Below are positions 4,800-26,704 of a stretch of DNA of 64,000 bases, one piece after another. How positions within the stretch are numbered: the stretch's first letter is position 1; each line of letters starts with the position of its first letter. The translations under genes were made by a program, and so were the position numbers. This DNA is from a virus: IMG/VR virus record IMGVR_UViG_3300008121_000001, positions 1 to 64,000 of that record, one strand, 5' to 3'. The notes below the pieces were generated by a model. The model saw only the letters and a list, made by a program, of their open reading frames with translations. It ran no database searches and was not told the origin of the DNA.

Positions 4800-5389
4800 C
4801 ACGAACTAAAAACCTTTCTCGCGAACAACTTCTCATTTCCTTTCTGCACCGAGCTTGTGACCTTTCTTCCAGTGGTCTGCAAATCGATTCTGAAGGCTAC
4901 CTCTATGCTTCTGGTGAGATGATAGCCGCTTGGCGAGGTTATGGTCTTGGCGGTACATTATTTATCGATTGTGGCTCATCTAAGCTGTGCAATCGTAGAG
5001 CAGCTAACGACCTCAAAGAGTTGGCAGAAAAAGAAGGGGTAGCTTATTTGTGTTACAACACTTACAGCTATACAATCTCCCCTGAATTTCAGTTTGCTGA
5101 ACGTCTAGTCTCCTATGCAATCTGGGCTACTCCTAAAGTAGTGAATCCTGAAAATATCTTTGTTCAAAGCAAAAAACTACTTGACAAGGCTATTGAGAAG
5201 GCAATAAGCTATGGAAGTATTCAATCATTACTTGATTCAACACAACACATTGCAACATTGTTTAACTTCGTCTTTGATGCAACGTCTTACGACATTAAGA
5301 GACAACAACACATCGAAACAGCAAGCACAGCAAAAGCAGCACGCATCGAATACCACAGAAAAGAAATTGAGAGGTTACTTGCATCATGA
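4796..5389 (+). CDS. Conserved hypothetical protein (197 aa)
   Basis: ATG 4796 overlaps the upstream stop by four bases. The 197-residue product contains a compact beta-rich segment around residues 45-85 (AAWRGYGLGGTLFIDCG) and a long C-terminal helical region rich in Gln and Ala ending in IEYHRKEIERLL. Cysteines are scattered and do not form a zinc motif. Longer than most neighbours, so probably a folded, functional protein, but not recognised. Confidence 0.65.
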   Translation: MTRTKNLSREQLLISFLHRACDLSSSGLQIDSEGYLYASGEMIAAWRGYGLGGTLFIDCGSSKLCNRRAANDLKELAEKEGVAYLCYNTYSYTISPEFQFAERLVSYAIWATPKVVNPENIFVQSKKLLDKAIEKAISYGSIQSLLDSTQHIATLFNFVFDATSYDIKRQQHIETASTAKAARIEYHRKEIERLLAS

Positions 5390-7353: not shown

Positions 7354-7496
7354 CTAAGAATCAGACTACTATCACACTTTTCATTATTGGTATTGCTGCA
7401 TCTATTGCAATTAGCATTTTCCTTCCTTCTGCGGCTGAAGTTGTTATTAGCTCCACTTTTGTTTTGACACTCTTACATTTTTTGTTTGGAGATTAG
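7350..7496 (+). CDS. Small membrane protein, two transmembrane helices (48 aa)
   Basis: ATG 7350 overlaps the upstream TGA. After eight polar residues the product consists of two hydrophobic stretches (LFIIGIAASIAISIFL and VVISSTFVLTLLHFLFG) joined by a short acidic turn. It heads a group of four membrane miniproteins between 7.35 and 8.1 kb. A 15-codon frame (7500-7547, MIYNTLARPPPPYER) follows and may be another peptide; the stretch 7548-7688 beyond it holds no convincing gene, only two small hairpins. Confidence 0.55.
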   Translation: MTKNQTTITLFIIGIAASIAISIFLPSAAEVVISSTFVLTLLHFLFGD

Positions 7497-7688
7497 TTCA
7501 TGATTTACAATACCTTAGCAAGACCTCCTCCGCCTTACGAGCGATGACTCTAAAGATATTAAATTTGGTAAAAGACAACTCGCAGGACAGTAAAACAAAT
7601 CTGAATAGGTCTGGTGAAGCTTATGCGAACGCCCCTAAAAAGGGCAACCCCCTCTATCGTGGGGTATTAAGTAAAAATACAACCTATT

Positions 7689-7835
7689 ATGAAGACTCTA
7701 ATCATCTCTGTTTATATTCTTGCCGCTATCACTATTGCATACAACATTTTCGCACCCACAAACAACGTGCAAAAAATTGGTGCATTGATAGGTCTAATAG
7801 GTCTGACTGGCGCAGCTTGCTATTCAGCAGAATAA
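7689..7835 (+). CDS. Small membrane protein, two hydrophobic segments (48 aa)
   Basis: ATG 7689 opens 48 codons: a hydrophobic helix at residues 3-19 (TLIISVYILAAITIAY) and a second at 28-44 (IGALIGLIGLTGAACY). A longer frame starting at 7544 runs across the same DNA but its translation is cysteine/arginine rich and lacks protein-like character, so this frame is preferred. Function unknown. Confidence 0.5.
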   Translation: MKTLIISVYILAAITIAYNIFAPTNNVQKIGALIGLIGLTGAACYSAE

Positions 7836-22177: not shown

Positions 22178-22364
22178 TTTTGCTTTAGATGTAAGAAATG
22201 CTGAATTACAACTAAGCTTGTCCGAAGGAGCTAATTTGCAATTCAGCTATTTACCTTTTGATTCACGACTTGCTGTTGGTGAAATTCTTATCGACCGCAC
22301 CAACAATAAATTTTATGTAAATATTCCTCCAGATAGAGGCGCAGAAGAAGAAGTTAAGTTATAG
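22164..22364 (+). CDS. Hypothetical protein (66 aa)
   Basis: ATG 22164 overlapping the previous stop. Beta-rich: alternating hydrophobic strands (AELQLSLSEGANLQFSYL, NNKFYVNIPPD) and an acidic end. Last protein gene before a 1.2-kb gene-free RNA region. Confidence 0.5.
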   Translation: MNFLNFALDVRNAELQLSLSEGANLQFSYLPFDSRLAVGEILIDRTNNKFYVNIPPDRGAEEEVKL

Positions 22365-22365
22365 T

Positions 22366-23245
22366 AATAAATGTGAGGGAGATATAGTGCAGATGGAAAC
22401 TCTTGCTCAGTCATTGAATAATGATTGATGGCGCAATATAAACGTTAAGACGCACTCCCACAATAATGTTTAGTAAGTCGGAGGTGTATCTTCAAACAAA
22501 CTAAACAACTGGATGGCGGTGAATAGGCAATAAACCGCAGGGACACGTAGAGGTCATCGGCGTTCTCGCTTATTAACTCCTCACAACGAGTCTCGCAATG
22601 TCCAGCTCCATTTCATCTGGATATTTCGGGAATAGTCAATACCGAATCTGTGGGCGCGTTCATGCTAACCCTAGCCGCAACTTGTGGGACTTTATTAGGA
22701 CAGCAAGCTCTGAGAGTTAGGTCTAGGACATGGCTATCCAGCAACAACTCCAAGGTGTAGGTACATATCGGTACGGGCTAAGTAAATCACCTCGCCCTCT
22801 ATCCTCTCGGTAACTGGTGATAAGTGCCAAGACAATTTAGCAAGTAAGCTCTGCAACAAGCATCGAAGGTGTAAGAGGGTCATGGCTCTTACAATCAGTA
22901 GTGTTAGCCTTGATGCAATCTTACCCCTTGGAGACAACTCTTCAAATTAAGTAAGCACTGCAACTGCGAGTTCCGCGACAAATGGCTGATGATTGGAGCC
23001 AGCTCTGGTATTTAACTCAGGATAAAAATACCGCTTAATTTGAAGACCGCACCATCTAAGATAACCTCAACGATAAGCGTCTCTTGGAATCGGTTAGAGA
23101 CTTCAAAATAAAGAAAATGTCAGTCGCAGGAAGAGCCGAAGGTTTAAATCCCCTGAGACATACGTGAAAACATCACTGTTGTAAAAAGGCTGGCTTAAGT
23201 GCTGGTGATGGCGGTCAGATTAGAGTCTTCCCTTTATTTTGTTTC
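22366..23245 (+). ncRNA. Probable giant structured non-coding RNA (about 0.88 kb)
   Basis: No frame on either strand gives a protein-like translation here, yet the DNA is full of helices. Examples: TCAGTCATT (22407) with AATGATTGA (22420), 9 bp with a GAAT loop; TGTTTAGT (22467) with ACTAAACA (22500), 8 bp; ATCACC (22786) with GGTGAT (22816); GCATC-bulged G-AAGG (about 22860) with CCTTGATGC (about 22908) enclosing the 8-bp hairpin TGTAAGAG/CTCTTACA (22870-22893); TCTTCAAATTAAG (22939-22951) with CTTAATTTGAAGA (23034-23046), 13 perfect bp enclosing three smaller hairpins such as GGTATTT/AAATACC; GTCTCT/AGAGAC (23079-23101); CATCAC/GTGATG (about 23171-23210). It ends where tRNA-like genes begin. 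Size, ornate folding and position next to tRNAs in a phage resemble the GOLLD and ROOL classes of giant phage RNAs, but membership is not shown. Confidence 0.7.
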
Positions 23246-23378
23246 AGGAGAGTGGCGGAATTATTAGACGCTGAAGTGCAGAAATGCCACCAGTAGAGAC
23301 TAGACCTGTAAGCGGATAAAGTGGACGGGTTTTGTTCTGGAAAATTAGTCTCATGCAGGTGAGAATCCTGCCTCTCCT
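23246..23378 (+). tRNA. tRNA-Leu-like body with enlarged, non-canonical centre
   Basis: Acceptor stem AGGAGAG (23246-23252) / CTCTCCT (23372-23378), then TG and a class-II D-arm (GCG at 23255, CGC at 23269), and a T-arm GCAGG-TGAGAAT-CCTGC (23355-23371) stacked directly on the acceptor. The D-arm style GCGGAAT...AGACGC is that of tRNA-Leu. The centre is 83 nt instead of about 33. Where the anticodon arm should be lies a hairpin with a GAAA tetraloop (GTGCA-GAAA-TGC-C-AC, 23276-23290), followed by a large arm GAGACTA (23296) / TAGTCTC (23346) with an inner ACCTGT/ACGGGT helix. I cannot identify an anticodon; this may be a tRNA-like RNA without a decoding role, or may need removal of an insert. 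Confidence 0.5.
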
Positions 23379-23386
23379 TTCAATTT

Positions 23387-23507
23387 GGTTAAGTGGCGGA
23401 ACTGGTAGACGCTATACACTGAGATGAGCGTAGAAGTATGTTGACAACACATCAACTCTTAAATGAGGAGGCGCTCACACTTGCAGGTTCAAATCTTGCC
23501 TTAACTA
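23387..23507 (+). tRNA. Second tRNA-Leu-like body with enlarged centre
   Basis: Eight bases after the previous element. Acceptor GGTTAAG (23387-23393) / CTTAACT (23500-23506) with A as discriminator; TG; D-arm GCG (23396) / CGC (23410) with the canonical AACTGGTAGA loop of tRNA-Leu; T-arm GCAGG-TTCAAAT-CTTGC (23483-23499). The centre is 69 nt: an unpaired segment with CTGAGAT (a possible Leu GAG anticodon loop), a TGAGCGT/GCGCTCA helix (23425-23431 with 23471-23477), an inner GTTGA-CAACACA-TCAAC hairpin and a CTTAAAT that could be a UAA anticodon loop but is not flanked by a pairing stem. The tRNA frame is convincing, the decoding part is not. Confidence 0.5.
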
Positions 23508-23508
23508 T

Positions 23509-23574
23509 TGCGCGAATCTTCCTCACTGGAGACGGAGGGGTAATACCCCCTGAAAGTGTTTGAACACTAGCGCA
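23509..23574 (+). ncRNA. Short cloverleaf-like structured element
   Basis: Two bases after the second tRNA-like body. TGCGC (23509-23513) pairs with GCGCA (23570-23574) and encloses CTTC/GGAG (23518-23531), AGGGG/CCCCT (23536-23551) and AGTGT-TTGA-ACACT (23555-23568). The outline is tRNA-shaped but none of the conserved loop bases of tRNAs is present, so I call it only a structured RNA segment, perhaps a diverged array member. Confidence 0.35.
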
Positions 23575-25638: not shown

Positions 25639-25643
25639 GAGAG

Positions 25644-25669
25644 AGCGCTCCTTCGGGAACGCTTTTTTT
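25644..25669 (+). terminator. Rho-independent terminator with UUCG loop
   Basis: AGCG-CT-CC-TTCG-GG-AA-CGCT (25644-25663) followed by a run of seven Ts. The tetraloop and T-run make this a textbook terminator for the gene ending at 25638. Confidence 0.8.
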
Positions 25670-25717: not shown

Positions 25718-25748
25718 GTTTACAGAGCATAAGTTAAAGCTTATCAAA

Positions 25749-25841
25749 CACTTCTAAACCTCAGTTTTCTTCGTTCGACTCGAAGTTCTCCGACTATCGG
25801 AGAGTGATGTAACTGGTAAACATCTGAGGTCTAAAGAAGTG
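25749..25841 (+). tRNA. Circularly permuted tRNA gene, candidate anticodon CUA
   Basis: Order is 3' half then 5' half. 3' half: anticodon loop TTCTAAA (25752-25758), stem CCTCA (25759-25763), five-base variable loop GTTTT, T-arm CTTCG-TTCGACT-CGAAG (25769-25785), acceptor TTCTCCG (25786-25792). Linker ACTAT. 5' half: acceptor CGGAGAG (25798-25804, all seven pair, one G-U), TG, D-arm ATGT-AACTGGTAA-ACAT (25807-25823), one base, stem TGAGG (25825-25829, five of five pairs). Every spacing equals that of a standard tRNA. An outer helix CACTTC (25749) / GAAGTG (25836) brings the ends together, and TCTAAA is repeated at both ends. The loop would read C34 U35 A36, an amber anticodon. That it matures to a closed tRNA is inference. 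Confidence 0.6.
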
Positions 25842-25916
25842 GCTCAATCTGAAAATGAAATTGAAGTTATTGCTCCAAGTTCATCTTAAGGCTTTTTTCT
25901 TTGCGTCAAAGTTCGA

Positions 25917-26011
25917 CAGCTAATAATTGTAGATGTTGGTTCAAATCCAATCGAGGGCTTAATCTTGCCTTTGTCGTATAATGGTATTACCTACTTTGTA
26001 AAACTAAGCTG
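25917..26011 (+). tRNA. Second circularly permuted tRNA-like gene
   Basis: Same architecture 75 bases on. T-arm GTTGG-TTCAAAT-CCAAT (25935-25951), acceptor 3' strand CGAGGGC (25952-25958), linker of eight bases, acceptor 5' strand GCCTTTG (25967-25973; seven pairs, two of them G-U), TC, D-arm GTA-TAATGGTAT-TAC (25976-25990) with the conserved GG. Anticodon stem GTAG (25929) / CTAC (25991) gives four pairs, with an outer helix CAGCT (25917) / AGCTG (26007). The loop TTTGTAA after CTAC would give anticodon UGU; G1-C72, C2-G71 and G35 U36 are threonine identity features in E. coli. The variable region is only two bases and nt 26 is missing, so the anticodon arm is less regular than in the first gene. 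Confidence 0.5.
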
Positions 26012-26080
26012 CCGCCACAGGATATTAATAAAGCAAAGACCGAAAAAGAAAATATAACAGTATGTTGTAAATACTAAAAG

Positions 26081-26109
26081 GAAGCCGCATCAGGATACGA
26101 TGCGGCTTT
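26081..26109 (+). terminator. Terminator of the permuted-tRNA unit
   Basis: AGCCGCATC (26083-26091) and GATGCGGCT (26099-26107) form nine perfect pairs (eleven with flanking wobble), loop of seven, followed by TTTCGCCTTAT. It lies 70 bases after the second permuted gene and before the next promoter box. Confidence 0.75.
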
Positions 26110-26125
26110 CGCCTTATGTACCCTA

Positions 26126-26417: not shown

Positions 26418-26429
26418 ATGTCGTTGAGA

Positions 26430-26595
26430 TTGCTAGATAGCTTGTGCATACGTTGGTTCGACCCCAACCCCGTCCACTTGTCTCAGTGGTGTAACGGTAG
26501 CATAGGAGTCTCCAAAACTCTTGGAAATAGTTCAAATCTATTCTGATTCGCCAAGGGCGGGATAAATGGATTCGCTGTGGAAGTGATTTCTAGCA
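26430..26595 (+). ncRNA. Outer helical frame around tRNA-Trp; possible third permuted tRNA
   Basis: TTGCTAGA (26430-26437) pairs perfectly with TCTAGCAA (26588-26595). Inside, fourteen bases later, stands an isolated T-arm GTTGG-TTCGACC-CCAAC (26452-26468) followed by CCCGTCC (26469-26475); no matching 5' half exists upstream, but GGGCGGG (26555-26561), just beyond tRNA-Trp, pairs with it at all seven positions. The order outer helix, 14 nt, T-arm, acceptor 3' strand, insert, acceptor 5' strand, outer helix copies the two permuted genes, with the whole tRNA-Trp as the insert. A D-arm is not recognisable after 26561, so this is a weak candidate. Confidence 0.35.
26480..26553 (+). tRNA. tRNA-Trp (CCA)
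   Basis: Contiguous cloverleaf: acceptor GTCTCAG (26480) / CTGATTC (26543), TG, D-arm GTGT-AACGGTA-GCAT (26489-26503), anticodon arm GGAGT-CTCCAAA-ACTCT (26505-26521) with anticodon CCA, T-arm AATAG-TTCAAAT-CTATT (26526-26542), then G and an encoded CCA (26551-26553). Two of the seven acceptor pairs are mismatched (positions 2-71 and 3-70), unusual for a working tRNA. A phage-borne tRNA-Trp would supplement host decoding of UGG. Confidence 0.75.
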
Positions 26596-26704
26596 ACGCG
26601 CTGAAGTTTTATGAATGAAAGCTAGATGACACAAAAAGTAAATGCGAAAAACAACATTTGCCAATTCTCTAGAAAAGCTGCCCTCGTAGCCGCCTAGACT
26701 ACCC

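Follow-up and report, generated by a model that had tools for sequence, protein, structure and literature searches.

We analysed a 64,000-nt stretch of viral DNA (positions 1 to 64,000 of the 93-kb IMG/VR virus record IMGVR_UViG_3300008121_000001; hereafter, the window), focusing on an untranslated unit that carries two permuted tRNA-like domains, P1 (25749..25841) and P2 (25917..26011). The unit lies directly 3' of a gene for a 254-aa protein of the DUF7873 family (PF25283; 24874..25638; Pfam E = 1.3e-86), which is conserved in its place upstream of the RNA, is proposed as its partner and ends in a terminator-like hairpin, GAGCGCTCCTTCGGGAACGC-T7 (25639..25668). The unit itself, a structured non-coding RNA (ncRNA) spanning 25725..26113, comprises helix A with P1, a middle hairpin, helix B with P2, and a terminator, based on a seven-phage alignment (A1) and its RNAalifold consensus. 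The DUF7873 gene, its hairpin and all parts of the unit are on the plus strand.

A first-pass annotation of the sequence had described P1 as a circularly permuted tRNA gene, and every part of that layout was found at the positions claimed. P1 runs from the outer helix (CACTTC 25749-25754 / GAAGTG 25836-25841) through the 3' half with the T arm and a 5-nt linker to the 5' half with the D arm, and rotation restores the cloverleaf. Its parts are an anticodon stem (CCTCA 25759-25763 / TGAGG 25825-25829), the variable region GTTTT, the T arm CTTCG-TTCGACT-CGAAG (25769-25785), the acceptor (TTCTCCG 25786-25792 / CGGAGAG 25798-25804) and the D arm ATGT-AACTGGTAA-ACAT (25807-25823). The linker ACTAT between the acceptor strands (25793..25797) is the predicted cut site, with A73 and no CCA; relatives from other hosts have ACCA or TCCA at this position. 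No contiguous tRNA, the competing prediction, was called at P1 by ARAGORN or Rfam, and ARAGORN run on tandem-duplicated sequence windows with introns allowed recovered P1 as a rotated tRNA. Its identity calls were left unused because the anticodon calls shift.

P1 is not the lone gene that had been assumed, being one of two permuted domains within a single structured RNA. P2, which the first reading missed, begins 75 bases downstream of P1 and has an outer helix (CAGCT 25917-25921 / AGCTG 26007-26011), a T arm (25935-25951), an acceptor (CGAGGGC 25952-25958 / GCCTTTG 25967-25973), a linker (25959-25966) and a D arm (25976-25990). The RNAalifold consensus of the unit contains 89 pairs, 38 of them with two-sided changes, and because this fold shows it for the whole unit, we conclude that the permuted domains are embedded in a larger RNA via the stem at the anticodon-arm position. 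Helix A (GAGC 25725-25728 / GCTC 25842-25845, span 25725..25845), invariant in the seven phages, encloses a small hairpin (25730-25743) and P1. The near-invariant middle hairpin, AAAATGAA-TTG-AGT-TATT-GCT-CAA-TTCATCTT (25852..25887), holds the most conserved motif of the family, TTATYGCTCYA, and across 42 loci its consensus is TCAg.tTaT.GCtC.Ag. Helix B (TTTTTTCTTTGCGTC with GGAT and GCAAAG; 25893..26045), identified by covariation, encloses P2, and the conserved CCACAGGATATTAA (26015-26028) lies within its module. A covarying hairpin of the rho-independent terminator type, GAAGCCGCATC..GATGCGGCTTTC (26080..26113), closes the unit.

Seven distinct cyanophages, found by protein homology, were compared (the window phage, Pseudanabaena phages PA-SR01 and Pam2, and IMG/VR records L004-L008). 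A descriptor requiring a 5-bp T arm with a TTC loop, an acceptor paired at 7/7 positions over a linker of 1-20 nt, and a D arm with GG matched the window exactly twice, at P1 and P2, the chance rate being 0.017 per 64 kb of Markov sequence. It matched two sites and no others in the locus of each of the seven cyanophages, with P1 and P2 at the same place in all of them, and the stack of T stem and acceptor measured 5+7 bp in 14/14 domains. The acceptor sequences diverge widely and pairing is always kept (P2 has GCCTTTG/CGAGGGC in the window, GCCGAAA/TTTTGGC in PA-SR01, GGGCGAG/CTCGCCC in Pam2 and GGCAGAA/TTCTGCC in L007); the compensatory acceptor changes that the first-pass annotation had proposed as a check were present, and strong, in all seven. 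Over 13 domains the T-stem and acceptor positions were 100% paired with two-sided change in 12/12, compared with 58.6% paired in shuffles and 38-53% when slid, and 0/500 shuffles reached the score. For the P2 module, 96.7% of pair cells were paired and 22 of 39 pairs covaried (0/500 shuffles; slid controls, 37-45%). A covariance model, R1, picked out a single P1 and a single P2 in each phage, all scoring at least 52 bits (62.8 and 52.1 bits in the window), the next best match scoring 25.7 bits; its weak matches inside tRNA clusters were adjacent ordinary tRNAs. The conservation of the surrounding RNA equals that of the tRNA parts.

The published annotation of PA-SR01 gives three tRNAs only (PMC10286775). 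A Pseudanabaena metagenome-assembled genome had no R1 match among the 150 of 913 candidates scored, and exact motif searches of genome contigs and plasmids returned no matches. As a marker on its own, a 14-base downstream motif was rejected, as it matches two unrelated coding sequences (L013 and L014). Also rejected were pairing of the P1 5' half with the P2 3' half, possible in Pam2 only, and a short tag open reading frame after P1 (AQSENEIEVIAPSSS), whose stop and codons are not maintained in PA-SR01, L005 and L007, the stop being absent from PA-SR01 and L005, with non-synonymous changes included.

Around the anticodon the relatives differ. In PA-SR01, L004, L005 and L007, P1 is broken in the variable arm and keeps a complete hairpin resembling that of Leu(UAA) (TTYGG-ATTAAAA-..-CCRAA); P1 of the window and L008 is broken in the anticodon loop, with a mismatched stem in L008, and Pam2 P1 has no anticodon arm. 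The P2 loops share no common anticodon, P2 anticodon stems are poor in the window and L004, and the split site varies even among close relatives. Since this region varies among the relatives and one of them lacks it, a decoding function for P1 and P2, amber in particular, is not supported. The CUA loop behind the earlier proposal of an amber tRNA is absent in most relatives and arises in the window only by choosing one of two strands. Among the seven phages we found neither an intact 7-nt CUA loop, as expected of an amber suppressor, nor the one conserved anticodon of a mature decoding tRNA, the region being variable or missing. The TCTAAA repeat and CTA loop reported from the window are indeed there, but are limited to the window phage and one close relative.

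Homologues of DUF7873 occur in phages of Gordonia, Arthrobacter, Rhodococcus, Klebsiella, Vibrio, Rhizobium and others, often inside tRNA clusters. In Gordonia phage Phendrix the gene is immediately followed by two permuted domains (47.5 and 35.0 bits), and the middle motif GAAATTGAAGTTATYGCTCYAA (ATGAAATTGAAGTTATCGCTCTAA) is shared with the cyanophages; permuted domains also lie 3' of DUF7873 in Arthrobacter, Rhodococcus, Klebsiella, Vibrio and Rhizobium phages, in most isolates checked. Lak-B6 and a Microcoleus phage have DUF7873, and permuted domains were not found 3' of the gene. From 224 IMG/VR stretches encoding a DUF7873 relative, 80 loci were kept, of which the 75 beyond the cyanophage group were scanned with the descriptor and 72 had enough downstream sequence. 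At least one downstream domain was detected in 63/72 and two in 36/72, and the same scan gave no matches in 177.6 kb upstream or in 404.7 kb of reverse strand. The T loops of two-domain loci were mostly 143-187 nt apart, with one at 267, and the GAGC.yAAGyT start is the consensus upstream of P1 in the IMG/VR loci too. The view of P1 as the relic of a recent tandem duplication is overturned by its membership of a widespread family beside DUF7873 in phages of cyanobacteria, actinobacteria, and gamma- and alphaproteobacteria. Upstream of P1, many IMG/VR loci carry an (RRCTNA)n repeat with a 6-nt period, perhaps a protein-binding array.

The linker was 3 to 48 nt long across domains. Of 90 distinct domains, 32 have a CCA that begins immediately after nt 73, compared with a mean of 2.7 and a maximum of 8 in 2000 linker shuffles. 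Klebsiella phages have ACCA at P1 and the cyanophage domains have no CCA, in agreement with the usual encoding of tRNA genes in such hosts. The CCA evidence stands apart from the bias of the descriptor because its placement is independent of the pairing demanded, and it is the best indication that a tRNA-type 3' end may form.

With moderate confidence, we read P1 and P2 as permuted tRNA-like domains of one phage ncRNA that would be matured like two-piece transfer-messenger RNA (tmRNA) and would work with DUF7873. Rather than reading amber codons as a tRNA, this undescribed RNA probably belongs to a new class of tRNA mimics. We infer the cleavage, charging, protein binding and purpose as follows. 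Each domain would be transcribed as 3' half (T arm and acceptor 3' strand), linker, and 5' half (acceptor 5' strand and D arm); the stem at the anticodon-arm position would open into the remaining RNA, and the acceptor, T and D parts would adopt the elbow shape of a tRNA. Cleavage by host RNase P would fall on the linker's 5' side, and a tRNA-like 3' end would come from 3' processing, with CCA either encoded or added by the CCA enzyme. As in two-piece tmRNA, the acceptor and outer helices would hold the pieces together; a two-piece tmRNA is itself encoded by several of these phages, so the host two-piece pathway exists. The product would mimic a tRNA without decoding, in a ribonucleoprotein with DUF7873, whose binding to the RNA is suggested by the linkage, and perhaps serve to engage or decoy tRNA-handling factors. 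More tentatively, and with distinctly less confidence, these RNAs may form a widespread phage ribonucleoprotein class in which host enzymes mature the RNA into charged multi-piece tRNA mimics, bound by DUF7873, that take over or shield host translation or tRNA-defence machinery.

Several points weigh against maturation as a two-piece RNA with DUF7873. Transcription, cleavage and charging are predictions from sequence, and in 58 of the 90 domains nt 73 is not directly followed by CCA. Because the descriptor used to select the IMG/VR domains requires pairing, the pairing seen in them does not count as independent evidence. The DUF7873 structure model (predicted local distance difference test (pLDDT) 86, predicted template modelling score (pTM) 0.63) matches no known RNA-binding fold and has no confident match in PDB or BFVD. 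Finally, P1 of four cyanophages retains a covarying anticodon hairpin, a hint of tRNA-like use of the arm.

The missing CCA in most linkers would also suit a mimic that is never cut, in which the linker stays closed and the elbow-mimicking domains act in the manner of YrlA, as a scaffold for proteins that bind tRNA, such as anticodon nucleases or modifying enzymes, or as a decoy for them. A tRNA topology embedded by its anticodon stem beside a protein gene agrees with this, and YrlA, described as an ncRNA that is bound by protein and contains a tRNA-like domain, is a precedent (PMC7790460). However, a CCA exactly after nt 73 in 32/90 domains fits a closed loop poorly, the linkers span 3 to 48 nt, and TROVE/Ro60 was not found in 11 records; we consider an uncut mimic unlikely, though likelier than the other rivals.

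Less probable still are true permuted tRNA genes of the algal and archaeal type, in which cutting and joining the ends within the anticodon or variable arm would form a circle, and removal of the linker would then give ordinary decoding tRNAs. The canonical tRNA layout and the Leu(UAA)-like hairpin in P1 of four cyanophages speak for them, and a DraRnl/Rnl5-like RNA ligase in 5/5 near-complete relatives leaves a ligation route open. However, no consistent anticodon can be built across the relatives, Pam2 P1 having no such arm and the P2 stems of the window and L004 being poor; close relatives differ in split site while the surrounding RNA is equally conserved, RtcB was not found in these phages, and the same phages have ordinary tRNA clusters. 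A path of circularisation followed by cutting is not needed and would give no common anticodon. To our knowledge, bacteria lack the bulge-helix-bulge (BHB) endonuclease.

It is very improbable that the domains are merely RNase P and RNase Z cut sites that release the conserved middle RNA: conservation is highest in the middle hairpin, which sits between both domains, but the covarying outer helices would hold the pieces together, and contiguous tRNAs would suffice. Chance or a decayed tandem tRNA duplication, to which the TCTAAA repeat of the window copy might point, is refuted with near certainty by domains that are conserved, covarying and position-specific in many unrelated phages.

Among known systems, two-piece tmRNA, which is known in phages (PMC9004378), likewise places the 3' acceptor part first, then a linker and the 5' part, in a tRNA-like domain without the usual anticodon. 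Its linker is removed by tRNA enzymes, and the same removal would apply to P1 and P2; however, the P1/P2 unit differs in its full D stem, two tRNA-like domains and lack of a kept tag frame. The unit has no Rfam tmRNA match, and the tmRNA of the window is a separate gene at 26422-26697, permuted and two-piece with the tag AKNNICQFSRKAALVAA, which scored 41.2 bits to RF04321, just below the cut-off. An ordinary tRNA-Trp (26480-26553) is nested in its linker. By eye, a group I-like intron, with the motifs GGTCTAGAGACT .. AATAGTCC, apparently splits the tmRNA T loop in L005 (~7480-7720) and L002 (~4850-5080).

Permuted tRNA genes of red and green algae and Thermofilum (34 genes; PMC3978253) share the order of halves, the short linker and a junction often in the anticodon loop. 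In contrast to these, the phage domains have no common decoding anticodon, lie inside a larger conserved RNA, occur in bacterial phages and are linked to DUF7873. YrlA, the partner of Ro60/Rsr, is similarly described as an ncRNA with a tRNA-mimicking domain beside a protein gene, but compared with that description the phage RNA has a DUF7873 neighbour, two domains and encoded CCA (PMC7790460). The 11 records contained no TROVE protein, and the phage unit had no Rfam Y RNA match. No family of Rfam 15 covers the unit, the only matches being weak, chance-level ones to small nucleolar RNAs. In a full-text search of open-licence PubMed Central papers, permuted tRNA genes were reported only in algae and one archaeon and DUF7873 was named in none, although a description elsewhere is possible. 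Each element alone has a known parallel; the novelty lies in their combination, a single conserved RNA that holds two permuted tRNA-like domains and is accompanied by a linked protein family.

Other elements lie near the unit or in its relatives. A non-coding, cyanophage-conserved region of ~850 nt resembles a large structured RNA (window 22363-23240, L002 330-1100, L007 3313-3890, L005 3240-3830), and its window copy had no Rfam match. At 23248-23512 the window has two tRNA-like genes in contiguous order, with Leu-type D arms, T arms and ~80-nt inserts replacing the anticodon region. Two of these phages carry a conserved element (AACACCCTTCCGAGTGTCTCGGATTGCTTAGTGAAAGTGGCAGCTTCAACGCTGC ... CCACAGGTGG) between tRNAs of a tRNA cluster (L034 ~160-275 and L036 ~385-505). 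A DRB0094/Rnl5-like RNA ligase of ~380 aa (L159, L160 and L161) is conserved in the cyanophage group.

Across phages infecting several groups of bacteria, the permuted tRNA layout recurs as a conserved and regular component of an RNA family that tRNA finders have missed and that is absent from Rfam 15. A protein family with no known function is strictly linked to this RNA, and therefore a new RNA-protein system with a tRNA-mimic core is directly testable in laboratory phages such as the Gordonia phages Phendrix and GodonK.
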